Below, piece after piece: positions 20,573 to 51,344 of a stretch of 64,000 nt of DNA. The notes beneath the pieces were generated by a model. The model saw nothing but the letters and a program-made list of their open reading frames with translations. It had not been told where the DNA came from and ran no database searches. The position numbers were made by a program, and so were the translations under genes. How positions within the stretch are numbered: position 1 is the stretch's first letter; every line of letters begins with the position of its first letter. This DNA is from Pegea sp. RAD2-039 (lineage: Eukaryota > Chordata > Thaliacea > Salpida > Salpidae). The stretch is from contig JAQGEQ010000107.1 in the NCBI GenBank assembly GCA_034620365.1, positions 248,001-312,000 of the forward strand, read 5' to 3'.

Positions 20573-21436
20573 ATGATTCAGAATAAAGTTCAAAAAGTAA
20601 AGAAAAAAGAAAGGAAGTTTCTTAATTCCAGTATCGGTGTGATTGAAGCAGCAAATTTATACAGAAGTAAAACTGAGGCTACCAAATAATGTGAAGAAAA
20701 TGATGGAATGTTGATTCCATTACATAATCAGAAGATAGTTGATGAAGTATCAGATAAACTTATGGAGGTTAAATTCCTTAAAGAAGGAAGTTGGATTCTT
20801 GTTGGACTTGATTGTAAAAACGGAATATATCAGTGGCAAGATGGAATGAAGTTTAATGGAAATAATTATGATCCAATTTTGCAGTTGCGGAAAGATAAGT
20901 GTCAATAATAATATCTTTGACGTAGAAGTAACAGAAACAAGTTTCAACTAACAGGAAGTCGATGGAACTATTAGGTTCCATTTATATGTTTAAGGAATGG
21001 TAAGAATCAACCAGCATGAAAAACTTCTGCAATTAAATTTACAGAATTAAAAGATATTTTTATGTCTAGTAGTAGACAAACATTGATTACTTCGACTGAA
21101 CCAACAAGCAAACCTTTGTCTAGTAGCAGACAAACAACAACTGTAATTATTGATAGCAATAAAGTAAGTTCTAACAACTTTCTCTTGATTGGCTTATCTG
21201 TTGGATCAGTTCTGTTATTTGCATTAATTTGCTACATGGTTTTGAAAAAGACTCTTCTTAAGATAAAGAAACAAAAATACGTTGCCAATGATATTGAGCT
21301 TCAAGATGCTAAGGTTGACGAGAACAAAGACATCATTCAGCAAAGAGAAGAAAGTCATGTTTATGCTAATATTGAAGACTTAAACCATCAAGACACTTAT
21401 GTATCTATGATGCCAATTCATACCAGCATCATTTAA
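20573..21436 (+). pseudogene. CTLD receptor-like gene, copy A: broken ectodomain, intact tyrosine tail
   Basis: The frame aligns with the intact CTLD genes but has TAA at 20687 (Tyr codon in the others), TAA at 20906 and several further stops through the end of the lectin domain. From 21062 to 21436 the frame is open. It encodes a Ser/Thr-rich stalk with SSRQT repeats, one transmembrane segment (NNFLLIGLSVGSVLLFALIC), a basic stop-transfer (KKTLLKIKKQK) and a tail containing YANI, eight residues, then YVSM. This is the only copy with both tail tyrosines in frame with the transmembrane segment. ATGACGTCAT (21440-21449) lies just after the stop. The 3' piece could still be spliced to another exon, but no donor partner was found. 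Confidence 0.75.
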
Positions 21437-23600
21437 ACGATGACGTCATTTAGTCCAGAACTTCAAACTGTAAACGGATATTTTGTTTTCTGAAATTTTT
21501 TCTAAATCTCGTAAAAACAATCAGCTTCAAACCTCTTAAACAGATTTTAAAGTCATTCTTTTCTTAAGTTTATTTTCTGAGAACTTTTTTTTATTTAATT
21601 TTTTCCATCTAAAAAATTGTTGTTTATTGGTGAAGTATCTTCTATTGATGTACCAATTATCAGCTTCTAATGATGAGTAGCTTCAGCAAATATATATCTA
21701 CAATGTAATTAAAAATGAGAAACTTGTTTATAAAAAAGCTGAATATCTCTTAATGCAATCTTTAAATAATTTTCAGCTGCAAAATAATAAATATATCTTG
21801 ATTAAATCATTCGTTAAAAAAACTTTAATAAATGTCTTTATTTCCGTTTATTCATTTAATTAAATAATTCAGTTTATTGTATGGGTAAATCAGGACATTA
21901 TATATAATTTTGATAGTTGCAATGAATTTATTTTTATTTTTCATGTTGTGATGGTTTCCAAGATTTAAATATATTTAGTATATGAAAATTATTCATACAA
22001 ATAAAAAATTTTAAAATTGTATTTGAAAAAACAACATAAAAAACTTTTGTTTTCTGCAAGTGTTTTCGACAAGCTATAAAAACATTGTGGAGGTAAATCA
22101 CATATGCAGTTCTTGAATTTCTTTCAAATAAATTTTCTGGTTAAAATAAAGACTTTCAGGCCGTTAATTAACGTGGAAACAAAAATAAAATATTTTGACA
22201 AATAAAGTTAATAAAAAGTACTTTGTGATTTTATGTTTGATTTGACTTTGAATCTAATTTAAGATTTTATAGTTTTGATTTTTAACAAAATTTTCTAAGA
22301 TAAAATACTATTCAGTTAAAACAGGAAAAAGCTTGAAAAAGTTTCGAATGACAAAATTGTGAATTTCTCCTTTTATTCATTGTTTATGGTTTTTCATGAA
22401 GAATCTGTATATTCTGAGGAAAATCTGCTAAAAATGACTTTCAACTAGTTATGTTAAAAATAAAACTTTTTTCAATGAAATTCTTCAAACAAAATAATTG
22501 AAAATATTTAGAGATTTGAAGCAAAAGTAAATAACAAATAATTGTAATAAGTTTTAAAATAAACTTATTGAAATGAAAATATTTGATGAATAATTTTCAA
22601 ATTTTATCCCTAAAATGTAAAGCAAATAAAAAAAGGATTTCATCAAAATAAAAATTACTAAAGACAATTTTGAAACTAATAGAGTTAGTCTAATAAGAGC
22701 TGTGCAAACTTGTTTTAAACGTTTTGAAAAATCTGTGGACAACAAATTTAGATGAAACTTTAATTTTGGTTTAATGAGTTCTTCAATTATTAAATCTTTC
22801 ATTAAAAACAGGATAAAAAGTAATTTAATCATCGATAGTTTCCTACAATAAAACCACTAATTAAATAAAAAAGTCATTTTTTTTATTGTTATCAAAGAAA
22901 GTTTATTTATGAAAAGTTTTTGAATAGATAGAAAAAAGTAAAGTTAAACACAAAGTCTAAATTCTTAAAAGGATTTAAATTCTTTTAATATATATATCGT
23001 TTTTGGTATAAAGTGAGATTGTATAGTTTGTGAGAATGTTTATTAGCAAAAGATGTTCTTTTTAGGCATTCTACATCACATTTATTCTAAAAAATAAAGA
23101 AAAAAAAATTAACTAAAATATATATAAAGTATCAATTTTATGAAAAAAGTCTTGAAATATTTTCTCAAGCATAAAATAATACTTCACGATCAATTATCAC
23201 ATTTGTATGCATTAAAAGTCCTGGATGTAAATATCTTTATAGAAATTGTTGAATGTATTGATTTCTACTAAAAAAATAAGATTTAACATTTATATTCAAG
23301 TTTGGAATAACTAATAAGAGAGGTAGTGCTCCCAATACCAACTTAACTGGTAATCATTAATTTAAACTTTATAAAATCTCTAATCAGATAAAAATTTTCT
23401 TTTTCAATTTGTTTATTTTCAACCTCATAGAAAACATTAAGAAACATAAAATAATTTTTAATTTAAGTACATTGAAATTTTAACCAAATACTTTTCATAA
23501 ATGAATGATTGAATTTTGCAAATTTTGAAGGCTTTCAAATAATCTTAGCTACATCCTCTCAAAAGATCCGTGTATTAAGATAGATTGAAAAAAATTAATT
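21437..23600. other. 3' flank of CTLD copy A and unit spacer
   Basis: After the CRE-like palindrome the sequence matches 29010-31100 and 43900-45990 closely. The 34-codon ORF block is degraded here (about 22650-22755). I see no gene. Confidence 0.4.
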
Positions 23601-23621
23601 AAATTCATTAAGAACATCTTT

Positions 23622-23819
23622 TTGACATCTATAATTGGTTTATTGTATCATTCACTTCCTCTTCAAGTTGAATATTCTTTAAAAATTGTCATTAAAGTTA
23701 AAAAATTTAAAAACACTTTGAATAGTTTCATAGGAAGTAAATTATCCATGAAAAAATCTACTTGGCAAGAAACTGATTGGAAAACTATTGAAGGTGAATT
23801 TACTGAATACAAATTTTAA
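23622..23819 (+). repeat. R element copy with 65-codon TTG-started frame
   Basis: This is the same repeat as at 31124 and 46010, followed immediately by a TSP1 relic in all three places. Confidence 0.45.
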
Positions 23820-23825
23820 TAAAAG

Positions 23826-24040
23826 TTTATGAAAAGATGATCATAATACTGAGCATTTAAGGAACATTCGGGATGCAGACTCGAGATCTTGACCTTACAC
23901 TTCCTCCACAGTCAGAAAATTAGCTCCAACTCTAGTTTTAACTAAAAACTAAATTTTTAACTTCTACTAAATGGCGTAAAAGAGCTATAACTTACATAAA
24001 GATTGTTGGTTTCAAAATCTGATCTTTCACTAAGACAATA
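23826..24040 (-). pseudogene. Relic of TSP1 gene exons 3-4
   Basis: The minus strand keeps fragments of exon 4 (GGSVRSRSRVC-like), its acceptor TTTTTAGTTAAAA and the tail of exon 3 beyond. It is shorter than the relic at 10090. Confidence 0.6.
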
Positions 24041-25348
24041 ATACAATAACCAAATTGCATTTAATAGTTTTTCAAATAACTAATGGAAATACCAAACTTT
24101 CTTCCAAAGCGTAACAACTAAAAAAGCTTAAAATAATATCAAGAATATGAAGAATACAATTTAAGATTTGTAGAAGTTGATTTTCAATTTTTATTGATTT
24201 TCTATTAAGCTGATAAGATTCCTGAACATATTAGATGTCTGATTTTTTTAACTAAAACTCACTTTAATTTTTTTAAGCCAAAACAGTATTATCTGATTTT
24301 ATCAAATACTGACATTAGTTTAAAAACTTTTTAGTATTAGGTTAAATCTATCAGTATTTAATAAGATTTCAATTTTTTTGAACAACTGAATTTATTTCTA
24401 TTTTGTAAGTCTAAAAAACGAACTCAACAATAATTTGATTATAAAAGTTTAAATGTGAAATGTAACTTTTTTTCAAAAAGTAGAAATACTTTTCAATTAT
24501 AAAGAGATATAAGATTTTATTTACTGACTTTCAACTTTTGGTAGAAAAAATAAAATCGTTTTTTTTTTGTCATAAAATGTACTTTGAAATTGTTTTATAA
24601 TTCTTTTAAACGATCTTAAACCTTTATAACTCATATAAACGAATTTATGATGACAATAAATCAGGTTTTTGTTTTTTTCATTATTTGTTACTCGAAGTAA
24701 TATATTAGAAACTTTATCTTTTGGTGAAAAATATTTCGATTTACAATCAATCATAGAACTGAATATTTAATAACATTTTTCTCAAACTTTCAAATATAAT
24801 GCTTTCAATTGTAAAAAAATGATTAAAAGTAGAAAGTTTGCTTAAAAATATTTAACTATTTTGTAGCATTACATTGTAAATTATTTCTTTTTTAGTTCAA
24901 ATAAGAAGATTTTACAAGTAATTCAACCTGAAGCGGTTTTAAACCAATTATAAGAGATTTTTTAAATAAAAAATAGTTTAACTATTTATTATTTCTATTG
25001 GAGAAATAAGATTTAACATTTTTATTCATGTTTAAAAGTTTTATTTAGGTTTTGTGTAAAACTACCTTAAACACGTTTTTCGTCTAAAGGTTTAATTCAT
25101 TTTAAAAGTCATTATAAGATTGTATAAAATTATTTTACTTTTTTTAAGCTACTTATTTAGTGTTAAAATCTTTCTAGCTTTTAAACTGTTTGAGAATCTG
25201 TATTTAGCTTTATTTGAAAAATAAATGACAAGATTTGATGTTGTCGCTTTTTTAAAAACTTTATATTTTATCATTAACCTAAAAAAATTAATTTTTAAAA
25301 TTTTTCCACACTTCCCAGCTTTTCTATTTTTAGTTTCTAAATCGTACA

Positions 25349-26584
25349 ATGTATTTCTTTGCTTGTAAGTCTTGCCGGTCAATCTGCTCCAGGTTCAAAT
25401 ACTGCGCACCGTTTTATGTAGAAGAGTTCCCAGACGCTATTTCTGTGTCCCAAGCTGATGTGAGTGAAATTATTGATAATGATTACTGTTACATCGGAGG
25501 CTGTTCTGTCCTGCCAGTTTTTTGTTTGGCTTGCAATATTGAGCTTGGTTGCAGAATCATAAGAGTCAGTAATATAAATCGAAAATCATTATGAGGCTTG
25601 TATCAATTTAAAAGAGAATCATTGATAAAAATGGATAGAAAAGCTGTTCGAAGAGAATTTGAAGTGATCAAAGAAAGAATATCAAGTGAGAAAGAGAAAG
25701 AAAAAGAAAAAGAAGAAAACAAAGAAGCAGAGGAAAAAGAAGAGGAAGAAGAAGACGAAGAGAAAAAAGAGGGGAAAACAGAAGAGGAAGAAGCGGAAGA
25801 GGAAGAGGAAGAAGATGAAGAGAGTGAAAATGTTGATGATTCCTTCCGGATTCAAGATCCTCAAAGTATTTTTAGTAGAGAGTTAGAAAAAGAGAAACAT
25901 AAAGTGAACAACCAAATCTTAGAAATAACTTCTTTAGATATTGAAGGCATGAGACTTGCGTGTAGAGTTGCTGATCAACAGATCAATTTGTATTTGAGAT
26001 TTGCAGTTGAGATTTTAACGAGAAACTTGGTTCCAGTATTAAAGATAAAATTGAAACAAAGCGTCTACTGATTGGTTAGTTTTGAATTGTAAAGAAACCA
26101 CTAAAAGATATTTAAGAAAGATCACTCTTAACAACTCAGAGAAAAGAAGATTAATTGAAAGTACATATAAAAACTCTCAACACTAATTTCGAAGACAATT
26201 AAAAAGTATTTTCATAAATTTGAACAGTTTCTAGAAGTTGATCTTTTTATAATGAAAAGATCTTTGAGAAAGAGTCTTCTAGATGCTATTGTTCAAATTA
26301 AACGGAAAAACTCTTGTGCTCTTACTAACATCAACGAAGAACATCTTAGTTGTACATTATTTCTGTTAAAAAAAATGGTAGAAATACGAGCTGAATGTTT
26401 GAATAATATTGACAATGAAATGGAAATTGTGTTAGAAAAACTGTTTTACTGGATCCAAAGTGGTTTTGAAATTTCTAACGTGATGTGGAGTGCCAAACTG
26501 AATTCATATTTGGGTAAACTACAAGATGGTATTATTGGTTTGATTCGAAAAACTTGTATGACGAAAAAACAATTAGAATATTGA
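25349..26584 (+). pseudogene. Mis18-like protein, copy 2, with nonsense codon and two deletions
   Basis: It starts with the same MYFFACKSC and second CxxC (CLAC). TGA at 25592-25594 replaces an Arg/Cys codon just before the LYQF motif. The acidic tract is longer than in copy 1 or 3 (about 25690-25840, Glu/Lys rich). A 29-nt deletion near 26060 shifts the frame and gives a stop at 26069. A 1-nt deletion near 26170 brings the frame back, so 26252-26584 reads the normal C-terminus. It is a clear pseudogene unless heavily edited. Confidence 0.75.
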
Positions 26585-26599
26585 TTTTACTAATATAGG

Positions 26600-27390
26600 T
26601 TGGACATCACTATTATTAAAATTCATTTCGCTTTTAAAGTTTTACTTTTGGTTGATGTTAAAAAGGAAATTTGTGTTTGGTGACTTGACGAATTCTTATA
26701 AATATAAATAACATTCTGGAATTATCCATGTCTCGTAAATATTACTTTTAAGTCTTAAACTACAAAAAGCACTCTTGAAAAATATTCTATAATTTGCTTT
26801 GAGCCTTTTTATTAAACTCTAAATAACTTAGAAAAATAAGATTACTTATTAGTAACCTTTAGTAAATACTAAAATAAGTTTATATATAAAAATGTTAACT
26901 TACTTTTTTTAATATACTTAATTAAAAAATATCTAATTTGTTGATAAAGCAGAAATCAAACCTAATATCTTTAAGGTTATCATAATCGTAATTTGTTAAT
27001 AGAGTTCTAATTTGGTTTTTCAACTTTTGGTTAGTTGTTTAAACTCCAAAATCTTTCACATAATTAATTCAAAATTGTATTATGGTTCTTAGAAAAGATT
27101 TATTTGGTATTCAGAAGAATCGTTTAAATTGAATAACTCTTAGTGAATGATCAGAAAAACAACTAAACGAAACGTGTTTAAAAGATTCGTAAAAAAATAA
27201 CGATTATATATTTATTCGTGTTTATAAATAATAAACCTTTTTATAAAACTTATTACAACGTATATGAAATGTAGTAAATATTAAAAACATAATTTTTCTA
27301 AAGCTTTTTAGATTAAGTTTTTAAACCAAATAAAATAACTGAATTCATAATAAGTTTGATCACTTACTAAGTTATTCTCAATTTTTATAG
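26600..27390. other. Spacer between Mis18-like copy 2 and relic CBM14/CTLD exon
   Basis: This stretch is nearly identical to 41410-42219, showing that units 2 and 4 are sister duplicates. No gene is seen. Confidence 0.45.
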
Positions 27391-27650
27391 GAATCTTAGA
27401 GATAATGTCACGTCCTCCTGCAACTCATTTCAATCCATATTTGAAGATTTGTGATTTTCCATAAAAAGTTCCTCCTTGCAGAGTAGATAGTAATTAAAAC
27501 TAAAGATCTAAGAACTTTAGGTTTGCTGATATTGAAGCCTTAAGTAATCAAGACACTTACGTATTCATGATACTAATTCTTGACAGCATCATTCAAATGA
27601 TGACATCATTTAGTTCTGAACTTATGATTGTAAACGGATATTTCATTTTC
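27391..27650 (+). pseudogene. Relic CBM14 terminal exon joined to a CTLD tail
   Basis: A TTTTTATAG acceptor is followed by a second-half CBM14 exon (GILEIMS...[13 protein letters not shown]) resembling the terminal exon at 19991, ending in TAA. Within about 40 nt comes a diverged CTLD tail (ADIEALSNQDTYV) and an ATGACATCAT at 27600, the counterpart of ATGACGTCAT after live CTLD genes. Compared with 19991-21449, about 1.2 kb is missing between the two parts. The twin is at 42220. Confidence 0.65.
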
Positions 27651-28152
27651 TAATTTTTTTTTCTAAATCTCGAACCATCAGCCTAAAACCTCTCGTAAAC
27701 ATTCATTCTTTAAATTCTAATTCTTTATTTTTTTCTATAAAAAATTTAGTGCTTATTGTTGATGAGTCTAAATATTAATCGTTAGTTAATACAAATAATT
27801 AAATGTATTATAACCTTAACCATGTTAATTATATCATCATTTGAATAAATCTCAAAAACGTTTTTTCACGTATAATCATTCAATTATTTCAGATCAGTTG
27901 GTTCAGCTTCTGACTAGTAGTGTTAAAATAGTTCAGGTTAAAAGTAAAAAAAATGAAAATAAAAATATACAAGACTCGAAGATATCTATAAATAAATATA
28001 TTTGTTCAAATTCAAGGAAATAGCTTTTTGGATAAAGTACTAAAAAAGACAAAGAAAAGTATTTAACTTTAAAACTGAAAGAAACTTTTTTAGAAGTATA
28101 ACAGTTGGTTGGGTTTTTGGTTGTTAAGTTTTATGGTTCAAAAAACCAGAAT

Positions 28153-28929
28153 ATGGTTGAGAATAAAAGTCAAAGGGTAAAGGAGGTTTTTGATTCTAAT
28201 ATCGGTGTGATTGAAGTAGTAAATTTATACAGAAGTAAATCTGAAGCCACCAAATATTGTGAGGAAAATGATGGAATGTTGATTCCATTACATAATCAGA
28301 AGATAGTTGATGAAGTATCTGATAAACTTATGGAGGCTAAAATTAAAAAAAAAATAACCTGGCTTCAAGTAGGACTTGATTGTAAAAACGGAAGTTATCA
28401 ATGGCAAGATGGAATGAAGTTTAATGGAAATAATTACAATCCAAGTTTGCAGTTTCCAACAGATAGGTGTCAAAACTTCTTTTATCTTCGACGTAGAAGT
28501 AACAGTAAGAAGTTCCAACTCACAGGAAGTCGATGGAACTATTATGTTCCATTTTTATGTTTAAGGAATAGTAAGATTAAACCAACAACAAAAAGGCCAA
28601 CAACTGCATTACCAGAAGCAAAAGATAGTTTTAGTAACAGACAAACAAAAGTTACTTCGACAGAACTAACCAATAAACCCTTCACTAGTAACAGACAAAC
28701 AACAACTTTATTTACTGGTAGCAATCAAGAAGGTTCTAACAGCTTTCTCTTGATTGGTTTATCTGTTGGATCAGTTCTGTTATTTGTATTAATTTGCTAC
28801 ATGGTTTTGAAAAAGACTCTTCTTAAGAAAAAGAAACTAAAATATGCTGCCAATGATATTGAGCTTCAAGATGCTAAGGTTGAAGAAGAAGAAGACATCA
28901 ATCAGCAAAGAGAAGAAAGTCATCTTTAG
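28153..28929 (+). CDS. CTLD single-pass membrane protein, copy B, tail truncated
   Basis: I chose the ATG at 28153 because it aligns with the ATG of copies A and C. The frame is open further upstream to 28105 without an ATG, so a spliced 5' exon is possible. The lectin-like domain shows KYC, GMLIP, WLQVGLDC, YQWQDG, TDRC, SRWNYYVPFLC. It lacks the third canonical cysteine and clear EPN/QPD plus WND calcium motifs. A Ser/Thr-rich stalk with two RQT repeats follows. Then come one transmembrane segment (FLLIGLSVGSVLLFVLICYM) and a basic, acidic-ended cytosolic part. TAG at 28927 sits exactly where copy A has the first tail tyrosine. Beyond it the frame stays open to TAA at 28999-29001 and still encodes YVSM. 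No signal peptide is visible, so topology is uncertain. Confidence 0.8.
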   Translation: MVENKSQRVKEVFDSNIGVIEVVNLYRSKSEATKYCEENDGMLIPLHNQKIVDEVSDKLMEAKIKKKITWLQVGLDCKNGSYQWQDGMKFNGNNYNPSLQFPTDRCQNFFYLRRRSNSKKFQLTGSRWNYYVPFLCLRNSKIKPTTKRPTTALPEAKDSFSNRQTKVTSTELTNKPFTSNRQTTTLFTGSNQEGSNSFLLIGLSVGSVLLFVLICYMVLKKTLLKKKKLKYAANDIELQDAKVEEEEDINQQREESHL

Positions 28930-29004
28930 GCTGATATTGAAGACTTAAACCATCAAGACACTTATGTATCTATGATGCCAAGTCATAACAACATCAATTA
29001 AACG

Positions 29005-29014
29005 ATGACGTCAT
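29005..29014. promoter_or_regulatory. ATGACGTCAT palindrome after CTLD copy B
   Basis: A perfect 10-nt CRE-like palindrome lies a few bases after the tail's final stop. It is conserved at 21440-21449 and 43895-43904. Confidence 0.4.
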
Positions 29015-31100: not shown

Positions 31101-31123
31101 TTAAATTAATTAAGAACATCTTT

Positions 31124-31321: not shown

Positions 31322-31327
31322 TAAAAG

Positions 31328-31540: not shown

Positions 31541-32851
31541 TAACACAATAACCAAATTGCATTTAATAGTTTTTCAAATAACTAATGGAATTGCCAAGCT
31601 TTCTTCCAAAGCGTAAAAACTAAAAAAACTTTAAGTAATATCAAGAATATAAAGAATACAATTTAAGATTTGTAGAAGTTGATTTTCAAATTTTATTGAT
31701 TTTCTATTAAACTGATAAGACTCCTGAACATAATTGATATCTGATTTTTTTAACTAAAATTCACTTTAATTTTTTTGAGCCAAAACAGTATTATCTGATT
31801 TTATCAAAAACTGGCATTAGTTTAAAAACCTTTTAGTATTAGGTTATATCTATCAGTATTTAATAAGATTTAAATTTTTTTGAATAATTAAATTTATTTC
31901 TATTTTGTAAGTCTAAAAAACGAACTGAACAATAATTTGATTCTAAAAGTTTAAATGTGAAATGTAACTTTGTTTCAAAAAGTAAAAATACTTTTCAATT
32001 ATAAAAAGATATAATATTTTATTTACTGACCTTCAGCTTTTGGTAGAAAAAAAAAAACTTTTTTTTAGTCATAAAATGTACTTTGAATTGTTTTAAAATT
32101 TTATTAAACGATCTTAAACTTTTATAACTCATATATACGAATTTATGATGACAATAAAACAAGTTTTCGTTTTTTTTCATTATTTGTTACTTGTAGTAAT
32201 ATATTAGAAAGTTTATCTTTTGGTGAAAAATATTTCGATTTACAATCAATCATAGAACTGAATTTTTAATAACATATTTCTCAAACTTTCAAATACAATG
32301 TTTTCAATCGTAAAAAAATGATTAAAAGAAGATATTTTGCTTTAAAATATTTAACTATTTTGTATTTTGTGGCATTACGTTGTAAACTATTTGTTTTTAG
32401 TTCAAATAAGAAGTTTTTACAAGGACTTCAACCTGAAGCGGTTTAAACCAATTATAAATGATTTTTTAATAAAATATAGTCTAACTATTTATTATTTCTA
32501 ATGGAGAAATAAGATTACACATTTTTATTCAAGTTTAAAAGTTGTATTTATGTCTTATGTAAAACTAGCTAGAAAAACGATTTTTGTCTAAAGGTTTAAT
32601 TTATTTTAAAAGTCGTTATAAGATTTTATGAAATTATTTTACTTTATTTAAGTTACTTATTTAGTGTTAAAATCTTTCTAGCTTTTAAGCTGTTTGAGAA
32701 TCTATAATTAGCTTCATTTGAAAAATAGATGAAACAATTGATGTTGTCGCTTTTTCAAAAACTTTATATTTTATCATTAACCTCAAAAAATTGAATTTCA
32801 AAATTTGTTCACACTTCCCAGCTTTTCTATTTTTAGTTTCTAAATCGTACA

Positions 32852-34015
32852 ATGCATTTCTTTGCTTGTAAGTCTTGCCGGTCAATCTGCTCCAGGTTCA
32901 AATACTGCGCACCGTTTTATGTAGAAGAGTTTCCAGACGCTATTTCTGTGTCCCAAGCTGATGTGAGTGAAATTATTGACAATGCTTACTGTTACATCGG
33001 AGGCTGTTCTGTCCTGCCAGTTTTTTGTTTGGATTGCAATATTGAGCTTGGTTGCAGAATCATAAGAGTCAGTAATAAAAATCGAAAATCATTACGTGGC
33101 TTGTATCAATTTAAAAGAGAATCATTGATAAAAATGGATGTAGAAACTGTTCAAAGAGAATTTGAAGTGATAAAAGAAAGATTAGCAAGTGAAGACAGGG
33201 AAGAAGATGATGAAGTTGAAGAGAGTGAAAATGTGGATGGTTTTCTGCTGCTTCAAGATCTTCAAAGTATTTTTAGTAGAGAGTTAGAAAAAGAGAAATA
33301 TAAAGTGAACAACCAAATCTTACAAAAAACTTCATCAGATATCAAAGGAATGAGACTTGCGAGTAGAGTTGCTGATCAACAGATCAATTTGTATTTGAGA
33401 TTTGCAGTTGAGATTTTAACGAGAAACTTGGTTCCAGTATTAAAGATAAAATTGAAACAAATTGAAGCAGATTTATTCTCAAGAGTTCTAGCCTCTACTG
33501 ATTGGTTAGTTTTGAATTGTAAAGAAACCACTAAAAGATATTTAAGAAAGATCACTCTTAACAACTCAAAGAAAAGAAGATTAATTGAAAGTACATATAA
33601 AAAACTATCAACACTAATTTCGAAGACAATTAAAAAGTATTTTCATAAATTTGAACAGTTTCTAGAAGTTGATCTTTTTATAATGAAAAGATCTTTGAGA
33701 AAGATTCTTCGAGATGCTATTGTTCAAATTAAACGGAAAAACTCTTGTGCTCTTACTAACATCAACGAAGAACATCTTAGTTGTACATTATTTCTGTTAA
33801 CAAAAATGGTAGAAATACGAGCTGAATGTTTGATTAATATTGACAATGAAATGGAAATTGTTTTAGAAAAACTGTTTTACTGGATCCAAAGTGGTTTTGA
33901 ATTTTCTAACGTGATGTGGAGTGCCAAACTGATATCATTTTTTGAAAAATTGCTAAATAGTAGTATTCGTTTGATTCGAAAAACTTGTATGACGAAAAAA
34001 CAAAAAGAATATTGA
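32852..34015 (+). CDS. Mis18-like protein with acidic tract, copy 3, the only intact copy
   Basis: An uninterrupted 387-codon frame. Residues 1-95 carry CxxC at 6-9 and 59-62, several further cysteines, and L-R-G-L-Y-Q-F at 81-87. This is the spacing and trailing motif expected of the Mis18/Yippee zinc-binding fold. A short acidic stretch (about 108-125) follows. The rest is predicted helical and strongly basic (KETTKRYLRK, NSKKRRLIES, TIKKYFHKFEQF) and resembles nothing I recognise. Mis18 proteins help deposit CENP-A at centromeres; acidic tracts are common in histone chaperones. Both points are inference. Alternatives are another beta-tent zinc domain such as an RLR C-terminal domain, which lacks the LRGLYQF match. 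A CTATTTTTAG acceptor-like site lies 15 nt upstream of the ATG and the frame is open back to it, so an upstream exon is possible. Confidence 0.75.
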   Translation: MHFFACKSCRSICSRFKYCAPFYVEEFPDAISVSQADVSEIIDNAYCYIGGCSVLPVFCLDCNIELGCRIIRVSNKNRKSLRGLYQFKRESLIKMDVETVQREFEVIKERLASEDREEDDEVEESENVDGFLLLQDLQSIFSRELEKEKYKVNNQILQKTSSDIKGMRLASRVADQQINLYLRFAVEILTRNLVPVLKIKLKQIEADLFSRVLASTDWLVLNCKETTKRYLRKITLNNSKKRRLIESTYKKLSTLISKTIKKYFHKFEQFLEVDLFIMKRSLRKILRDAIVQIKRKNSCALTNINEEHLSCTLFLLTKMVEIRAECLINIDNEMEIVLEKLFYWIQSGFEFSNVMWSAKLISFFEKLLNSSIRLIRKTCMTKKQKEY

Positions 34016-34864: not shown

Positions 34865-35668
34865 ATGATTCAGAATAAAAGTAAAAAAGTAGAGAAAAAA
34901 GAAAAGAAGTTTCTTAATTCCAGTATCGGTGTGATTGAAGTAGTAAATTTACACAAAACTAAAACTGAAGCGACCAAATATTGTGAAGAAAATGATGGAA
35001 TGTTGATTCCATTACATAATCAGAAGACAGTTGATGAAGTATCTGATAAACTTATAGAGGCGAAAATTTTTAAAAAAATAACTTGGCTTCAAGTAGGACT
35101 TGATTGTAAACACGGAATATATCAGTGGAAAGATGGAATGAAGTTTAATGAAAATAATTATGATCCAAGCTTGCATTTGTCATCATATAAGTGTCAAAAC
35201 TTATATCTTAAAAGGAGCAATAGAAGCAGAAAATTCGAACTAACAGGAAGTCGATGGAACTATTATGTTCCATTTTTATGTTTAAGGAATAGTAAGACTA
35301 AACCAACAACAAAAGGGTCAACAATTGCATTTACAGAAGCAAAAAGTCTCTTTCTGTCTAGTATCAGACAAACAGCAATTACTTTGACTGAATCAACAAG
35401 CAAACCTTTCACTAGTAGCAGACAAACAACAACTTTATTTACTGGTAGCAATAAATTAGGTTCTAACAACTTTCTCTTGTTTGGTTTATTTGTTGGATCA
35501 GTTCTGTTATTTGTATTTATTTGCTACATGGTTTTGAAGATATTTCTTTTTACAAAGAAAAAGAAAGAAAGATCAACTACTGAAGATATTGAGCTTAAAA
35601 ATACAAGTAATGCTTACGTAGTTGATGACGTGTCTCATGACCAAGTTGATGAACAAGAGAAAGAATAA
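34865..35668 (+). CDS. CTLD single-pass membrane protein, copy C, divergent tail
   Basis: 267 codons from an ATG aligned with copy A. The lectin-like domain has TKYC, WLQVGLDCKHGIYQWKDG, YKC and SRWNYYVPFLC. A two-unit RQT stalk is followed by a transmembrane segment (FLLFGLFVGSVLLFVFICYM). The cytosolic end differs from A, B and D (KIFLFTKKKKERSTTEDIEL...), ending at TAA 35666. In another frame the next 72 nt (35668-35739) read NILYNLDDEDLIYSMTDDNQ and end in TAA at 35740-35742. This is clearly related to the tyrosine tail of copy A, so a frameshift has separated it. Upstream of the ATG the frame has TGA and TAG, which favours this ATG. Confidence 0.8.
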   Translation: MIQNKSKKVEKKEKKFLNSSIGVIEVVNLHKTKTEATKYCEENDGMLIPLHNQKTVDEVSDKLIEAKIFKKITWLQVGLDCKHGIYQWKDGMKFNENNYDPSLHLSSYKCQNLYLKRSNRSRKFELTGSRWNYYVPFLCLRNSKTKPTTKGSTIAFTEAKSLFLSSIRQTAITLTESTSKPFTSSRQTTTLFTGSNKLGSNNFLLFGLFVGSVLLFVFICYMVLKIFLFTKKKKERSTTEDIELKNTSNAYVVDDVSHDQVDEQEKE

Positions 35669-35742
35669 ATATTCTGTATAATCTTGATGATGAAGATCTT
35701 ATTTACTCAATGACAGATGACAATCAACGATCAATCATGTAA

Positions 35743-37300
35743 TGTTTTTGATTATAACAAAGTCTTATATCCTTCTATAATAGCAATATAATAATCATCA
35801 TGTCTTTATCATCCGACTTTTCTCAATGTCCAGCACTTTATTTCACTTTTGAACTTTTGAATTTTCAAGCAATTAAATAAAATAAGAAGGAAAAAGCATT
35901 TCTGTTAAAACTTTTCACTTTATAATTTATATTTACAAAAGTCGGTTTCTTTTAATTTATCATAAAGATCTACTCTGTATAAGATTTTTATTATATATTC
36001 GGAAATTTCATAAAGACTAACTTCTAATTGTTCATTTCATTGTATCTTTAAAGTTTAATCAAAATGTGTTATATTGAATTTGCAGTTTAGTTCCTATCTA
36101 TTTAATATATTAATTAGAAAGCATGATCATTATTTAATCATTATTTAAAATTAGTTGAGTGGATACTATTATAATAAAGATTATTGAAGCTTTTAAACTA
36201 AATTTTGATTAAGAAAAACAAGAAAATTTTTTAGTAATTGAAGTCATCTACTGAATGTTTAAAGTTAACTGTAAATGTTATTACTTCAAGTAGTTTGTAA
36301 TCTGTAAAAACTACCATCTTCTACTGTATAATTTCACTATAATATTTAAACATTTGAGTTTAAGCTTTCTCTTTAAAAATATTTACTGCAGAGTAACTTG
36401 ACTAAAAAACAATTTTGATTTTCAAATGATTATATTTAGTAGGAAATGTTACTTTGTAAAATTTTCGATTAAATTTTATTTATAATATTTTTGATTTCAT
36501 CTTTTAAGGATATTAAGGCATGAACCTTGACAGCTTTCACTTTTAGTAAAAAGTTTTAATTATTAAATTTGTAATTATCGATCTGTATATTACAGTAGTT
36601 TTTCTTAAACTTTTAAAGTAAATATTTTGTTTTTAAAAATTGTTCCTTTTGATTAATTGCAGATAAAAAGTAAAACCTTCGATTATTTTCAGTTACTAAC
36701 AATAGGTCTTTGAAAAATGTTTTTTTATGATTTTTTTTCTTTTTCATCTTTTAAATTACCGCTTTTCTAATTTATCAATATGCTAATGTTTAAGACAAAC
36801 CAGAATATTAAACTTTAACAACTTTCACATTCTGAAAACTTATTAGTAAGATGCAATTATACAAGTTTTAAACTTAAATTCCAACAACATTTTATTTAAA
36901 AACTTTTCATTTTGTGACATCTAATAGACCAATCTGAATGTTATTAATTTGTTTTAATAAATGTAAAGCAGAATGGCTGAAGAGAGCATCTCCCACTAAA
37001 ACACATTCTCACAAAAAACATCTATTAAGTTAGAAATAAACAAAGCAAAAGATGTAACACATGGCATTTCAGTAGTCCTCAAAGCATATAACAGTGACTA
37101 ATTATATAGAATATTAATAATATAAAAGTTGGAAAAACTCACTGTTTTGAAATGGAAATGTTTGCAAAAGTTTAACAGTTCAACTTGTGCTTGAACAAAT
37201 AAATTGTCATAATTTTCATTATGATTATAGGTTTTCGGAAGAAACAGTATCAAATGATTTAAACTAAAAAGCGTTCTTCCCATTTTTTTTTGAACATATT
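35743..37300. other. Unique AT-rich spacer
   Basis: This stretch has no counterpart in the other units apart from its edges, and I recognise no gene. It may include the 3' part of the retrotransposon relic found at 37310-37590. An AATAAA occurs near 35875. Confidence 0.35.
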
Positions 37301-37309
37301 GACATCACC

Positions 37310-37590
37310 TGCTGCTACTAGTCTTCTGATGAGGTATTCAATGAAAATTTAAATGAGAAGTGAACCAGAACGGAACCCTGATGAACACCACTGGTAATTT
37401 GACTTAGATGTGGATAAAGATCTTTCTACACGAGGTTGTTGGTTTCTATCTGATCTTTAATCTTCAATCCACTGTAAGATAAAGCTGTTGATTTTTAAGT
37501 TTTTCAATACAGTAATTAGCTTGTTGTGTGGGACACAATCAAATGACTTGTCATATAATTGTGAATGATATGCTCTTGAGTTCTACAGAT
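37310..37590 (-). mobile_element. Relic of a non-LTR retrotransposon reverse transcriptase
   Basis: On the minus strand, DKSFDCVPHNKLITVLKNLK and SGVHQGSVLVHFSF are recognisable in different frames. They match the conserved D-x-S-K-A-F-D-x-V-P-H and S-G-V-P-Q-G-S-V-L-G-P-L-L-F blocks of LINE reverse transcriptases. Stops and frameshifts make it dead. The catalytic YxDD (FADD) block is not visible. I cannot place the clade. Confidence 0.7.
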
Positions 37591-37759
37591 AACTGAACTC
37601 AGCAAACCGATCAAAAAGCTAAACGTCTGTTTAATATGGTTTTCTGAAAAATAAAAAATTATGATAATCAATACATAAGTAGTAAAATGAGAATAATATA
37701 TTCGAGAACAATTATTCCATTTTTAACAAGTTTTCTATTAAAAACTTGTACAACAACAG

Positions 37760-38045
37760 CACTAAAAAGTATTAGTCCTAACAGTGAATATTTTCAAATA
37801 TCATAGAACTGATATCATTTCTACCAATTTAATACAGGTTGGTTTGAAGTTATTCATTTAATTGATTGTTTGTTGTCAAAATAAACAAACTGATTTTATA
37901 AATAGTTTATTTTTTCAATAAATTGTTGTCGGTTTAAACAGGAATCTTATACACAGTGCCATTTGGTACTGGAACTGTTCTCAATCCAGCTTTAACGGTT
38001 TGTGGTTGGCCAGATAAAATTCCTCAGTGCAGAGGAATAAGTAAT
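37760..38045 (+). pseudogene. Relic CBM14 exon pair
   Basis: The first half (37760-37837) has lost its cysteines. The second half (from 37942) keeps the TTTAAACAG acceptor and reads ILYTVPFGTGTVLNPALTVC, with the fourth cysteine replaced by Phe. It is followed by the usual AGGTAGTGCT sequence. Confidence 0.65.
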
Positions 38046-38379
38046 AAGAAAGGTAGTGCTCAAAATACCAAGAAAACTGGAAATTAAATATCTACACTTT
38101 GTAAAATCTCTAATCAAATAAAAGTACTTCATTTTAACTTGTGTATTTTCAACTTTTTGGAAAACCTTAAAAAGTCATAAAATAAATTTTAATTTAAGTA
38201 CATTGAAATTTTAATCAAAAACTTTTCATAAATGAATGATTGAATGCTTTTAACAAAAGGTTTTCAAATATCTTTTTATTTTTGCAAAATTTTAAGGCTT
38301 TCAAATAATCTTAGCTACATCCTCTAAAAAGACTCGTGTATTTAGTTAGATTAACAAATTAATTAAATTAATTAAGAAC

Positions 38380-38585
38380 ATCTCCTTGACATCTATAATT
38401 GTTTTATTGAATCATTCACTTCCTTTTCAAGTTAAATATTCTTTCAAAATTTTCATTGAAGTTAAAAAATTAAAAACACTTTGAATAGTTTCATAGGAAG
38501 TAGATTATCCATGACAAAATCTACTTTGCAAGAAACTGATTGAAAATCTATTAAAGGTGAATTATATGAAAACAAATTTTAATAA
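38380..38585 (+). repeat. R element copy with broken frame
   Basis: It matches the other R copies, but stops (TAA near 38434, TGA near 38540) interrupt the frame. This supports a non-coding status. Confidence 0.45.
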
Positions 38586-38587
38586 AA

Positions 38588-38800
38588 GTTTATGAAAAGA
38601 TGATCATAATACGGAGCATTTTAGGAACATTCGGGATGCATGCACGAGATCTCTACCTTACACTTCCTCTGCATTCAGAAAATTAGCTCTAACTCTAGTT
38701 TTAACTAAACACTAAATTTTTAACTTCTACTAAGTGGCGTTAAAGAGCTAAAACTTTTATAAATAATGTTGGTTTCAAAATGTGATCTTTCTCTAAGACA
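38588..38800 (-). pseudogene. Relic of TSP1 gene exons 3-4
   Basis: Same relic as at 31328, more diverged. Confidence 0.55.
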
Positions 38801-40116
38801 ATAACACAATAACCAAATTGCATTTAATAGTTTTTCGAATAACTAATGGAAATACCAAACTTTCTTCCGAAGCATAAAAACTAAAAAAACTTAAAATAAT
38901 ATCAAGAATATAAAGAATACAATTTATGATTTGTAGAAGTTGATTTTCAATTTTTATTGATTTTCTATTAAACTGATAAGACTCCTGAACATAATTGATA
39001 TCTGATTTTTTTAACTAAAATTCACTTTAATTTTTTTAAGCCAAAACAGTATTATCTGATTTTATCAAATACTGACGTTAATTTAAAAACTTTTTAGTAT
39101 TAGGTTATATCTATCAGTAAATAATAAGATCTAAATTTTTTTGAATAATTGGATTTATTTCTATTTTGTAAGTCTAAAAAACGAACTCAACAATAATTTG
39201 ATTCTAAAAGTTTAAATGTGAAATGTAACTTTGTTTCAAAAAGTAAAAATACTTTTTAATTATAAAAAGATATAAGATTTTTTTTACTGACCTTCAACTT
39301 TTGGTAGAAAAAATAAAATTGTTTTTTTTTATCATAAAATGTACTTTGAAATATGTTATAACTTTTTTAAACGATCTTAAACTTTTATAACTCATATATA
39401 CGAATTTATGATGACAATAAAACAAGTTTTCATTTTTTTCATTATTTGTTACTCGAAGTAATATAATAGAAAGTTTATCTTTTGGTGAAAAATATTTCGA
39501 TTTACAATCAATCAAAGAACTGAATAATTAATAAAATTTTTCTCAAACTTTCTTATACAATGTTTTCAAATGTAAAAAAATGATTAAAAGTACAAGGTTT
39601 GCTTAAAAATATTTAACTATTTTGTATTTTGTAGCATTACATTGTAGACTATTTCCTTTTTAGTTCAAATAAGAAGTTTTTACAAGTACTTTAACCTGAA
39701 GCGGTTTTAAACCAATTATAAGTGACTTTTTTAATAAAATATAGTCTAACTATTTATTATTTCTAATGGAGAAATAAGATTTAACATTTTTATTCAAGCT
39801 TAAAAGTTCTATTTATGTCTTATGTAAGACTAGCTAGAAAAACGATTTTTGTCTAAAGGTTTAATTTATTTTAAAAGTCGTTATAAGATTTTATGAAATT
39901 ATTTTACTTTATTTAAGTTACTTATTTAGTGTTAAAATCTTTCTAGCTTTTAAGCTGTTCGAGAATCTATAATTAGCTTCATTTGAAAAATAGATGAAAC
40001 AATTGATGATGTCGCTTTTTCAAAAACTTCATATTTTATCATTAACCTCAAAAAATTGAATTTCAAAATTTGTTCACACTTCCCAGCTTTTCTATTTTTA
40101 GTTTCTAAATCGTACA

Positions 40117-41399
40117 ATGTATTTCTTTGCTTGTAAGTCTTGCCGGTCAATCTGCTCCAGGTTCCAATACTGCGCACCGTTTTATGTAGAAGAGTTTCCA
40201 GACGCTATTTCTGTGTCCCAAGCTGATGTGAGTGAAATTATTGATAATGATTACTGTTACATCGGAGGCTGTTCTGTCCTGCCAGTTTTTTGTCTGGCTT
40301 GCAATATTGAGTTTGTTGCAGAATCATAAGAGTCAGTAATAAACATCGAAAATCATTACGTGGCTTGTATCAATTTAAAAGAGAATCATTGATAAAAATG
40401 TATACAGAAACTGTTCAAAGAGAATTTGAAGTGATAAAAGAAAGAATAGCAAGTGAAAAAGAGGAAGAACATAGGAAAGAAGAAGAGAAAGAAGAAGAGG
40501 AAAAAGAAGGGGAAGAAGAAGAAGAAGAGAAAAAAGAGGAGAAAACAGAATAGGAAGAAGCAGACCAAGAAGAAGAGGAAGAAAATGAGTAAGATTAAAA
40601 TGAAGAAGGTGAAGATGAAGAGAGTGAAAATGTTGATGATTCCCTCCGGATTCAAGATCTTCAAAGTATTTTTAGTAGAGAGTTAGAAAAAGAGAAATAC
40701 AAAGTGAACAACCAAATCTTAGAAATAACTTCTTTAGATATCAAAGAAATGAGACTTGTGAGTAGAGTTGCTGATCAACAGATCAATTTGTATTTGAGAT
40801 TTGCAGTTGAGATTTTAACAAGAAACTTTGTTCCAGTGTTAAAGATAAAATTGAGACAAATTGAAGCAGATTTATTCATGAAAGTTCTTGCATCTACTGA
40901 TTTTTTGGTTTCGAATTGTAGAGAAACCACTAAAAGATATTTAAGAAAGATCACTCTTAACAACTCAAAGAAAAGAAGATTAATTGAAAGTACATATAAA
41001 AAACTATCAACATTAATTTCGAAGACAATTAAAAAGTATTTTCATAAATTCGAACAGTTTCTAGAAGTTGATCTTTTTATAATGAAAAGATCTTTGAGAA
41101 AGATTCTTCTAGATGCTATTGTTCAAATTAAACGGAAAAACTCTTTTGCTCTTACTAACATCAACGAAGAACATCTTAGTCGTACATTATTTCGGTTAAC
41201 AAAAATGGTAAAAATACGAGCTGAATGTTTGATTAATATTGACAATGGAATGGAAATTGTTTTAGAAAAACTGTTTTTCTGGATCCAAAGTGGTTTTGAA
41301 TTTTCTAACGTGGTGTGGAGTGCCAAACTGAATTCAAATTTTGGAAAATTACTAGATAGTAGTATTCGTTTGATTCGAAAAACCTGTTTGACGAAATAA
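40117..41399 (+). pseudogene. Mis18-like protein, copy 4, frameshifted with three stops in the acidic tract
   Basis: The N-terminus (MYFFACKSCRSIC, CLAC) is intact up to a 1-nt deletion near 40312 in the segment after the second CxxC. In the downstream frame the acidic region has TAG at 40551 and TAA at 40590 and 40596. From there the C-terminal helical region is open to TAA at 41397, about six codons earlier than in copy 3. The acidic tract is long and lysine/glutamate mixed. A pseudogene. Confidence 0.75.
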
Positions 41400-42219
41400 C
41401 AATTAGAATATTGATTTTACTAATATAGGTTGGACATCAGTATTATTGAAATGCATTTCGCTTTTAAAGTTTTACTTTTAGTTGTTGTTCAAAAGAAATT
41501 TATGTTTTGTGACTTGACGAATTCTTACAAATAAAAATTACATTCTAGAATTATCCATGTCTTCTAAATTTTATTTTTAAGTCTTAAACTACAAAAAGAA
41601 CTTTTAAAAAAGCTTTTATGATTTGCTCTGAATCTTTTTATAGAACTTTAAATAACTTAGAAAAATAAAATTACTTATTAGTGACCTTTGGTAAATACTA
41701 AAATAAGTTTATATATAAAAATGTTAACTTACTTTTTTTAATATACTTAATTAAAAAAGACTTATTTTGTCGATAAAGCAGAAATCAAACCTAATATCTT
41801 TAAGGTTATCATAATAGTAATTCGTTAATAGAGTTCTAATTTGGTTTTTCAACTTTTGGTTAGTTGTTTAAACTCCAAAATCTTTTACATAATTAATTCA
41901 AAATTGTATTATGGTTGTTAGAAAAGATTTATTTGGTATTCAGAAGAATCGTTTAAATTGAATAACTCTTAGTGAATGATCAGAAAAACAACTAAACGAA
42001 ACGTGTTTAAAAGATTCGTAAAAAAATAACGATTATATATTTATTCGTGTTTATAAATAATAAACCTTTTTATAAAACTTATTACAACGTATATGAAATG
42101 TAGTAAATATTAAAAACATAATTTTTCTAAAGCTTTTTAGATTAAGTTTTTAAACCAAATAAAATAACTGAATTCATAATAAGTTTGATCACTTACTACG
42201 TTATTCTCAATTTTTATAG
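41400..42219. other. Spacer after Mis18-like copy 4
   Basis: Nearly identical to 26600-27390; no gene seen. Confidence 0.4.
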
Positions 42220-42465
42220 GAATCTTAGAGATAATGTCACGTCCTCCTGCAACTCATTTCAATCCATATTTGAAGATTTGTGATTTTCCATAAAAAGTTC
42301 CTCCTTGCAGAGTAGATAGTAATTAAAACTAAAGATCTAAGAACTTGAGGTTTGCTGATATTGAAGCCTTAAGTAATCAAGACACTTACGTATTCATGAT
42401 ACTAATTCTTGACAGCATCATTCAAATGATGACATCATTTAGTTCTGAACTTATGATTGTAAACG
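42220..42465 (+). pseudogene. Relic CBM14 terminal exon joined to a CTLD tail
   Basis: Almost identical to 27391-27650, including the TAA after CDFP and the ATGACATCAT. The fusion therefore predates the duplication that made units 2 and 4. Confidence 0.65.
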
Positions 42466-42982
42466 GATATTTCATTTTCTAATTTTTTTTTCTAAATCTC
42501 GAACCATCAGCCTAAAACCTCTCGTAAACATTCATTCTTTAAATTCTAATTCTTTACTTTTTTCTATAAAAAAATTATTGCTTATTGTTGACGAGTCTAA
42601 ATATTAATCGTTAGTTAATACAAATAATTAAATGTATTATAACCTTAACCATGTTAATTATATCATCATTTGAATAAATCTCAAAAACGTTTTTTCACGT
42701 ATAATCATTCAATTATTTCAGATCAGTTGGTTCAGCTTCTGACTAGTAGTGTTAAAATAGTTCAGGTTAAAAGTAAAAAAAAAAGGAAATAAAAATATAC
42801 AAGACTCGAAGATATCTATAAATAAATATATTTGTTCAAATTCAAGGAAATAGCTTTTTGGAAAGAGTACTAAAAAAGACAAAGAAAAGTATTTAACTTT
42901 AAAACTAAAAGAAACTTTTTTAGAAGTATAACAGTTGGTTGAGTTTTTGGTTGTTAAGTTTTATGGTTCAAAAAACCAGAAT

Positions 42983-43819
42983 ATGTTTGAGAATAAAAGT
43001 CAAAGGGTAAAGGAGGTTTTTGATTCTAGTATCGGTGTGATTGAAGTAGTAAATTTATACAGAAGTAAGTCTGAAGCTACCAAATATTGTGAGGAAAATG
43101 ATGGAATGTTGATTCCATTACATAATCAGAAGATAGTTGAAGAAGTATCTGATAAACTTATGGAGGCTAAAATTAAAAAAAAAATAACCTGGCTTCAAGT
43201 AGGACTTGATTGTAAAAACGGAAGTTATCAGTGGCAAGATGGAATGAAGTTTAATGAAAATAATTACAATCCAAGTTTGCAGTTTCCAACAGATAACTGT
43301 CAAAACTTCTTTTATCTTCGACGTAGAAGTAACAGTAAGAAGTTCCAACTCACAGGAAGTCGATGGAACTATTATGTTCCATTTTTATGTTTAAGGAATA
43401 GTAAGATTAAACCAACAACAAAAAGGCCAACAATTACATTTACAGAAGCAAAAGATATTTTTATGTCTAGTAACAGACAAACAGCAATTACTTTGACTGA
43501 TTCAACAAGCAAACCTTTGTATAGTAACAGACAAACAACATTTACTTTGACAGAACCAACAAGCAAACCTTTCACTAGTAGCAGACAAACAACAACTTTA
43601 TTTACTGGTAGCAATAAATTAGGTTTTAACAACTTTCTCTTGTTTGGTTTATTTGTTGGATCAGTTCTGTTATTTGTATTTATTTGCTACATGGTTTTAA
43701 AAAAGACTCTTCTTAAGAAAAAGAAACTAAAATATGCTGCCAATGATATTGAGCTTCAAGATGCTAACGTTGAAGAGGAAGAAGACATCAATCAGCAAAG
43801 AGAAGAAAGTCATCTTTAG
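42983..43819 (+). CDS. CTLD single-pass membrane protein, copy D, longer stalk, tail truncated
   Basis: The ATG at 42983 aligns with the other copies; the frame is open back to 42935 without an ATG. The lectin-like domain is almost the same as copy B, but has DNC instead of DRC before the loop. The stalk has three SNRQT/SSRQT repeats instead of two (about residues 160-210). The stalk end and transmembrane segment (NNFLLFGLFVGSVLLFVFIC) match copy C, while the cytosolic part matches copy B. Copy D thus looks like a B/C mosaic. TAG at 43817 replaces the first tail tyrosine, as in copy B, with an open continuation containing YVSM. No signal peptide is visible. Confidence 0.8.
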   Translation: MFENKSQRVKEVFDSSIGVIEVVNLYRSKSEATKYCEENDGMLIPLHNQKIVEEVSDKLMEAKIKKKITWLQVGLDCKNGSYQWQDGMKFNENNYNPSLQFPTDNCQNFFYLRRRSNSKKFQLTGSRWNYYVPFLCLRNSKIKPTTKRPTITFTEAKDIFMSSNRQTAITLTDSTSKPLYSNRQTTFTLTEPTSKPFTSSRQTTTLFTGSNKLGFNNFLLFGLFVGSVLLFVFICYMVLKKTLLKKKKLKYAANDIELQDANVEEEEDINQQREESHL

Positions 43820-43894
43820 GCTGATATTGAAGACTTAAACCATCAAGACACTTATGTATCTATGATGCCAAGTCATAACAACATCAATTAAACG

Positions 43895-50380: not shown

Positions 50381-50390
50381 AACAGCACCA

Positions 50391-51223: not shown

Positions 51224-51344
51224 ATTTTTATTAGTTCATATTTCTAAAACACAGAAAAAAATCACAAACATCACAACTTGGAAACAAAATCATAACTTTT
51301 TGTTCCTTCTATAAAATCTATATCTACCTTGAAAGCTTCAGACC

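Follow-up and report, generated by a model that had tools for sequence, protein, structure and literature searches.

The stretch of DNA analysed here, hereafter the window, covers 64,000 nucleotides of the thaliacean Pegea sp. RAD2-039 (contig C100, positions 248,001 to 312,000) and carries four genes, copies A to D, which code for a C-type lectin-like domain (CTLD) followed by a tyrosine-bearing tail, intact or cut short. Judged from their sequences, these four genes represent a small sample, in part broken, of a large animal family whose members are lectin-like membrane proteins. On balance, we favour the reading that this CTLD-transmembrane-tail family turns over rapidly by birth and death and is most likely paired-receptor-like. 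A preliminary description of the window had already suggested a birth-and-death receptor family, and the array, with its intact, short-tailed and broken copies, bears this out. The case also cautions against generalising from as few as four members of a large array.

Family architecture and copies in the window

The assembly searched comprises 105.7 Mb in 387 contigs, and loci of family relatives in it are designated by L-numbers. A search with copy D yielded 139 matching pieces at E<=10, many of which were not fetched; the best 30 all lie on C100. Reassigned stop codons were considered and set aside; an internal stop is absent from most family matches. From the relatives, 55 proteins were retained by an automatic filter (stop-to-stop frame of at least 195, core motif and transmembrane (TM) segment), including four cut by the locus end and near-identical pairs such as L071/L072.

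An open copy consists of one intron-free frame, coding for a short polar N-terminus, a degenerate CTLD, a Thr/Ser-rich stalk and one TM helix, after which come a Lys-rich stop-transfer and a tail with tyrosine motifs. The architecture of CTLD, stalk, TM segment and tyrosine tail given in the preliminary description is thus supported. The Pfam lectin profile PF00059 matches copies B, C and D with E-values of 4.6e-4, 6.2e-4 and 3.1e-4, just below the curated cut-off, and at E<=0.01 it recognises 15 of 17 member CTLD stretches, whereas among full-length relatives half (4 of 8) match. Compared with solved CTLDs, the family profile finds Lymphocyte antigen 75 as best match (4e-14), and it also matches CLEC1B (4e-4) and, weakly, Dectin-1 (0.08) and KLRB1 (0.2). 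Moreover, the W-x-[DNE] motif is present in 55/55 proteins, and two cysteines, C40 and C139, are invariant in 17 members. With regard to calcium and sugar binding, an EPN/QPD-like motif occurs in 1/55 proteins (L068) and WND/WNE in none of the 55, and the missing EPN/WND sites suggest that ligand binding is probably calcium-independent.

All four window copies lie on the plus strand. Copy A (20573..21436, stops checked in the sequence) starts at ATG 20573 and has a broken CTLD part, with six stops ahead of the TM segment (20687, 20906, 20909, 20918, 20972 and 21017), followed by an open stalk, TM segment and type-1 tail YANIEDLNHQDTYVSMMPIHTSII. The open tail frame begins at 21020 and carries YANI (21362), eight residues and YVSM (21398), remaining open to 21436, in agreement with the earlier account of a gene with lectin-domain stops but a kept YANI-x8-YVSM tail. 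All positions given in that account for the four copies hold. Given its six stops, copy A is debris. Its close relatives, L014 and L022, are located elsewhere on the contig, and the CTLD divergence among the three is 0.7-1.2%.

Copies B (28153..28929, ATG 28153) and D (42983..43819, ATG 42983) have an open CTLD, stalk and TM segment and a short tail, ending with TAG at 28927 and 43817, respectively. They show 9 CTLD differences. Behind each TAG lies a type-1 tail remnant, ADIEDLNHQDTYVSMMPSHNNIN in B (28930..29001) and its counterpart in D (43820..43891), with zero differences between the two over 23 codons. The stalk of D contains a Thr/Ser-rich tandem repeat (43428..43595) with a unit of 54 bases (18 residues) in 3.1 copies. 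Copy C (34865..35668, ATG 34865) likewise has an open CTLD, stalk and TM segment, and its type-2 tail is cut by a one-base deletion. Its frame stops at 35666, and YNLDDEDLIYSM follows at 35677-35712 in a different frame, within the out-of-frame type-2 tail YNLDDEDLIYSMTDDNQRSIM (35677..35742). The preliminary description had placed a tyrosine tail of C in another frame past a frameshift, which is correct, the cause being the one-base deletion ahead of the tail. This deletion is also present in L017, whereas L018 and L019 have a tail of this type in frame.

Copies that keep both parts

From the four window genes it had been concluded that an intact ectodomain always goes with a truncated tail, with mutually exclusive loss of sensing and signalling parts, and a genome search for a copy with both parts was called for. 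This search was run, and intact copies were found on the same contig. L024 (C100:215,296-216,099, minus strand) is open from its ATG through CTLD, stalk, TM segment and the tail YASIEDLNNQDTYVSM, which contains YASI-x8-YVSM. L018 (166,102-166,965), L019 (357,387-358,370) and L025 (196,046-196,867, minus strand) are open through a type-2 tail of the form YNLDD...YS. L024 lies 32 kb to the left of the window, and L019 45 kb to the right. In the second subfamily (129-194 kb), L033, L036, L049, L050 and L054 keep both parts, their tails ending with IIYNME[LF] or ILYNMEF. The rule is refuted by these nine open copies.

For a count, 30 copies making up the two subfamilies on C100 were classified by hand, 19 of them from the window's subfamily. 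This set leaves out L020, L021 and L063 (truncated or fragments), L028 (a contig-end near-duplicate of L029), fragments at 137,977 and 144,740, and the other subfamilies (L055-L061, L065); L022 was scored as tail-open despite a Cys in the place of the second tyrosine. Both parts are present in 9 copies, the ectodomain only in 10, the tail only in 7 and neither in 4. The association between ectodomain and tail status is not significant, whether in all 30 copies (Fisher p=0.47) or in the window's subfamily (p=0.17), and mutual exclusion of the two losses is therefore not upheld. When the one-base shift in the A-run of L012 is taken as a sequencing error, the values become 0.26 overall and 0.059 in the window's subfamily. 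For type-1 tails only (n=11), p=0.08 hints at mutually exclusive loss among copies that are few and related, so that any association is flattered.

Tail exchange and recurrent tail loss

In B and D, TAG stands at exactly the first tail tyrosine, as had been noted, and tyrosine-keeping type-1 copies have TAT there. The haplotype CTT-TAG-GCT-GAT is common to B, D, L010, L012 and L023, the other type-1 copies reading GTT-TAT-GCT-[AG][AG]T. Two independent events in B and D thus give way to one haplotype in five copies, which most simply would reflect a single event. In the CTLD tree, L023 groups with L024/L025 (support 0.97), and B, D, L010 and L012 form a group of their own (0.99). Since the TAG haplotype extends over two CTLD clades, the TAG tail is either old or was passed on by exchange; support in the tail tree is poor around L023 and L010. 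Some of these copies carry further lesions, namely, a second in-frame TAG upstream of the shared one in L010, a one-base deletion behind the TAG in L023, and a one-base shift (one A in an A-run) in L012. The suggestion that B and D are soluble forms does not fit their retained TM segment; both would rather be short-tailed membrane forms, for which a decoy role may be considered.

Tails have evidently been swapped between copies, as seen in one clear pair. Between L024 and L025, the difference is 2.8% in CTLD DNA and 7.2% in the stalk, but their tails are of type 1 and type 2, respectively; tail and 3' flank, about 50% different, are unalignable, with the switch located around the TM end.

Loss of a tail tyrosine through a stop also recurs in the family, beyond the window copies for which it was first described. 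In L052, with an open ectodomain, TAT has become TAA exactly at the YNME[LF] tyrosine, a change shared by L062, which adds a CTLD stop. The same TAT to TAA change is found at YNLDD in L064, a decayed type-2 copy. In L037 and L051, GAA has become TAA seven and ten codons ahead of the YNME[LF] tyrosine, respectively, and a frameshift of L035 is also present in L053, which again adds a CTLD stop. By hand count, the terminal tyrosine modules were lost in six independent ways with the rest of the gene open: the type-1 TAG, the C/L017 frameshift, the L052 TAA, the L037 TAA, the L051 TAA and the L035 frameshift. Among single-lesion lineages, the first lesion, counted by hand and post hoc, lies in the tail in 6 and before it in 2 (L013 and L022), corresponding to P 0.004-0.03 for a tail share of 25-36%.

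Tail motifs

YxxM occurs 9 times in the 55 proteins, whereas 500 shuffles gave a mean of 2.4 and never more than 8. For Yxx[ILMV], the count is 87, compared with a shuffled mean of 55 and a maximum of 75; this motif is enriched in the C-terminal part. The shuffles ignore kinship, and near-identical pairs were left uncollapsed. An extended form, Y[LVI]xMx[PS][IL], is present in 7/55 proteins (L024, L043, L056, L057, L058, L061 and L066), with a CTLD identity of 33-47% and a tail identity of 21-38% (without L043) among the seven carriers. Its presence in such divergent relatives suggests that the YVSM of A, the only YxxM kept open among the window's copies, belongs to an old module. YxxM, proposed earlier as a PI3K-type site, can accordingly be regarded as a real tail module, enriched over shuffles and conserved across divergent relatives.

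Two other motif assignments did not withstand the comparison. The YxN site, viewed as Grb2-type, reads YANI in A, whereas L024 has YASI and L029/L030 have YADI, and YxN is no more frequent than in shuffled tails (21 vs 21.8). ITAM-like spacing (ITAM, immunoreceptor tyrosine-based activation motif) is not a family trait, a relaxed pattern being found in 3/55 tails with a shuffled mean of 1.7 and a maximum of 7. The strict pattern [DE]xxYxx[LI]x6-8Yxx[LI] is absent from A and L024, which have YxxI-x8-YxxM, the second half ending with M. Motifs resembling the inhibitory counterpart, ITIM, were considered as a family trait and set aside, with 16 occurrences, no enrichment over the shuffled mean of 13.7.

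Unusual tails were noticed outside the contig. L043 (C36:56001-59000) has a 385-residue tail with 30 tyrosines and repeated AIYSNVEE, AIYDRTED and YLAMRPI motifs, and the tail of L045 (C107:187501-190000) is a long array of DDVTDTRDDVSVGED-like repeats.

The receptor reading and its alternatives

We can propose the following course of events for a paired-receptor-like family. Tandem duplication and exchange, as the sequences show, place similar ectodomains on different tails and varied CTLDs on few tails. The CTLD, predicted to lie outside the cell, would sense a ligand, probably without calcium, and ligand binding would cluster the receptors. Long-tailed members may then signal, or be sorted, via terminal tyrosine modules that recruit SH2 proteins or AP-2, the conserved modules being YxxM-x-[PS]-[IL] (PI3K-p85-like or YxxPhi-like) and YN[LM]. 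Short-tailed B, C and D would keep the receptor without the terminal module, and might compete for ligand or dampen signalling. In favour of the proposal stand the intact copies, the tail exchange between L024 and L025, the TAG haplotype shared across CTLD clades, the repeated tail losses, the YxxM enrichment and the charge bias around the TM segment.

Besides the neglect of kinship in the motif shuffles, several points weigh against this proposal. YxxM reads as a p85 SH2 site and as a YxxPhi sorting signal, and can equally represent an AP-2 signal. The genome contains 33 SH2-matching pieces and one match to a p85-binding domain, which speak for the proposal, but the latter match has a TGA inside; p85 iSH2 was not found in an exon-wise search, which is a weak one. 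The TM core of B, C and D has no charged residue, unlike that of activating KIR; a charged core residue was noticed in 3/55 proteins (L018, L019 and L035), where the fixed window may take in the TM edge.

The constraint on the ectodomain is likewise weak. In the second subfamily, and here in favour of the proposal, the ratio of nonsynonymous to synonymous differences per site (pN/pS), pooled over 36 pairs of 9 genes, is 0.72 for CTLDs, 1.11 for tails and 1.44 for stalk and TM segment. In selected open pairs of the window's subfamily, the CTLD value ranges from 0.44 to 0.99, and that of the stalk is often above 1. Pairs including a broken copy give 0.38 (D-L012), 0.44 (L019-L026), 0.53 (D-A) and 1.43 (L019-L013), and L024 compared with A, L014 and L022 gives 0.99-1.12. 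Open and broken copies are therefore not cleanly separated by this ratio, D-A and L019-L026 being as low as open pairs. In a neutral simulation, D stays free of stops with P 0.24 after 20 substitutions, so that B and D being open says little.

It is a serious possibility, though one we hold to be clearly less than even, that plain pseudogenisation accounts for the array, which would expand while A to D are dead or dying, the position of their lesions being meaningless. A, L014, L022, L029, L030, L026, L064, L020 and L021 are broken, the association of losses is not significant, and TAT is one step from TAA or TAG in an AT-rich genome. In addition, the 9 CTLD differences between B and D are too few to judge constraint, and the D-A ratio is low despite A being broken. 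However, ectodomains remain open at 10-18% CTLD divergence (L018, L019, L023, L024 and L025, with 2.8% between L024 and L025), where neutral drift predicts stops; in the simulation, P falls to about 0.02-0.03 after 60 substitutions, which argues for selection on those open copies that have diverged. Furthermore, lesions in otherwise open genes gather at the tail end (6/8 events), whereas their position should carry no meaning under mere decay.

The topology raises a further objection to a surface receptor. A classical signal peptide was not recognised, by hydropathy and by eye, at the likely Met of the 55 proteins. Two cases are ambiguous: in L061, an earlier in-frame Met precedes a hydrophobic stretch, and in L044 the segment just before the Met is hydrophobic. 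Consequently, an N-terminal part at the cell surface would have to arrive there by an unusual route, or by means of a leader exon that has escaped notice. L059 and the second L055 copy have a single AG between the SSIG core and the closest in-frame stop ahead of it, and this AG adjoins the core; AG positions also vary between family members, which makes a common spliced leader exon unlikely.

Leader exons were also sought upstream of 14 loci on the basis of hydropathy and donor sites. A hydrophobic ATG stretch, MKMFFIIMLIVSLCI, was found upstream of A and L019, and L013 is preceded by a variant of it; all three run into a stop. A donor-like site is associated with the stretch of L013, and with neither of those of A and L019. 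D, L018, L023, L033, L035, L036 and L037 have other hydrophobic stretches far upstream, some with donor-like sites; one is common to L036 and L037, and three are common to L033 and L035. No such stretch was found at B, C, L024 and L025, nor one common to all 14 scanned loci. These stretches were rejected as leader exons, none being present in all copies and such stretches being expected in AT-rich DNA, although a leader exon retains a small probability. Leaders resembling classical signal peptides seemingly exist close by, as an open reading frame on the minus strand of the window (3854-4213) carries MRAILSFVFLVGLFQQSYC.

An N-inside topology may accordingly compete with the N-outside one, in the form of cytosolic or N-inside proteins with the CTLD in the cytosol and the tail facing outwards, or located at an inner membrane. 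We consider this improbable. The C side of the TM segment is the more positively charged one in 48/55 proteins and the N side in 6/55, favouring N-out, and Thr-rich repeat stalks, two invariant cysteines in 17 members and the C-terminal enrichment of Yxx[ILMV] speak in the same direction; the absence of a recognised signal peptide is the argument for it.

It is very unlikely that the TAG of B and D is spliced out or read through, which would give both copies a complete tail after all. CTTTAG|G resembles a 3' splice site, an in-frame GT..AG segment of 51 bases ends at the TAG in both (28879-28929 in B and 43769-43819 in D, with donors at 28879 and 43769) and its removal would restore YVSM, and the remnant behind the TAG is identical in the two copies. 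However, L010 and L023 have the same TAG without the donor GT, and L010 has its second in-frame TAG and L023 its deletion. Finally, assembly or sequencing error is hardly credible as the source of the stops and the frameshift: the L012 shift lies in an error-prone A-run and the contig end is a close, inverted repeat of the 199-204 kb stretch of the same contig, but five separate copies carry the TAG haplotype, and the C deletion recurs in a second copy, which lies on the opposite strand.

Comparison with known receptor systems

Several CTLD receptors with tyrosine tails, namely, Ly49, NKR-P1, CLEC-2 and Dectin-1, are type II proteins with an N-terminal cytoplasmic tail, whereas the tail described here is C-terminal. 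DEC-205, the mannose receptor and PLA2R are type I proteins with several CTLDs and signal peptides, and this family provides the best profile matches for the present CTLD. The co-receptors CD28 and DAP10, which carry YxxM, are Ig or adaptor proteins; the YxxM tail is common to them and to the present family, in which YxN is not conserved.

The closest parallels in organisation come from mammalian systems with another fold. In KIR, tails are exchanged by recombination, with shuffling of heads and tails (PMC7516082). The present family resembles KIR in its tandem cluster, long- and short-tailed forms and tail exchange; however, KIR have Ig domains, a leader, many exons and, in activating forms, a charged TM residue that pairs with an adaptor, in place of a CTLD and an intron-free frame. 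The recurrent tail loss echoes the convergent removal of the ITIM in KIR3DL3 (PMC6360152). In Siglec-11/16 (PMC5701461) and CEACAM (PMC2832619), near-identical binding domains stand on different tails and are kept alike by gene conversion, to which the near-identical ectodomains of L024 and L025 on different tails compare, as one clear pair. Both of these mammalian groups have an Ig fold and defined ITIM/ITAM partners, unlike the CTLD family. The literature searches made for invertebrate CTLD receptors with these features showed no such array, a result that applies to these searches alone; a paper on rotifer lectins (PMC8878817) deals with secretory ones and leaves out those with a transmembrane segment.

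Provided that the open copies are expressed, they would be an example, outside the vertebrates and with a different fold, of a paired-receptor-like system showing KIR-like tail exchange and convergent tail loss. They would then allow a test of whether long/short pairs arise wherever clustered receptors face fast-changing ligands. The apparent absence of signal peptides represents a separate question of cell biology. A bolder version, which we put forward tentatively and think rather unlikely as a whole, is that these form a genome-wide family of intron-free, leaderless CTLD receptors that arrive at the surface N-out by a non-classical route, an invertebrate counterpart of natural killer receptor complexes in which YxxM-x-P-I and YN[LM] modules, shuffled between ectodomains, are repeatedly stopped at or just before the tyrosine, generating long/short pairs.

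Neighbouring sequence and other features

The GC content of the window is 22-29% per 4-kb step. The window contains tandem units of several kb each, with about 82-95% mutual identity, which carry the CTLD genes and a Cys-rich/poly-Glu gene. The latter is present in five tandem copies on the plus strand, alternating with the CTLD copies (6704-7897, 25340-26584, 32837-34015, 40117-41399 and 47853-49142). It codes for a Cys-rich N-terminus (FACKSC...) followed by an acidic Glu-rich stretch, with stops or shifts in some copies. The N-terminus is weakly Yippee-Mis18-like (PF03226; third copy E 0.012, first copy E 0.2, below the cut-off), and a search against solved structures gave no convincing match for this gene. 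A hexamer repeat, AAGAGG, in 47 copies (48082-48365) codes for the poly-Glu stretch of the fifth copy.

On a larger scale, positions 7058-20062 and 48315-61393 of the window form a long duplication with 95-97% identity, including tandem-unit arrays (unit of about 1.0-1.3 kb). Elsewhere on C100, L028/L029 and L020/L021 are near-alike inverted copies (about 199-204 kb, minus strand, and 388-393 kb, plus strand), one of them at the contig end, which may represent a recent inverted duplication or an assembly artefact. Eukaryotic rRNA genes were identified with Rfam at two loci of the assembly, whereas searches with a bdelloid spliced leader and for COX1 gave no match. The 18S sequences of these loci, L039 and L040, are unlike, L039 having a much lower score, a degenerate appearance and a microsatellite in front.

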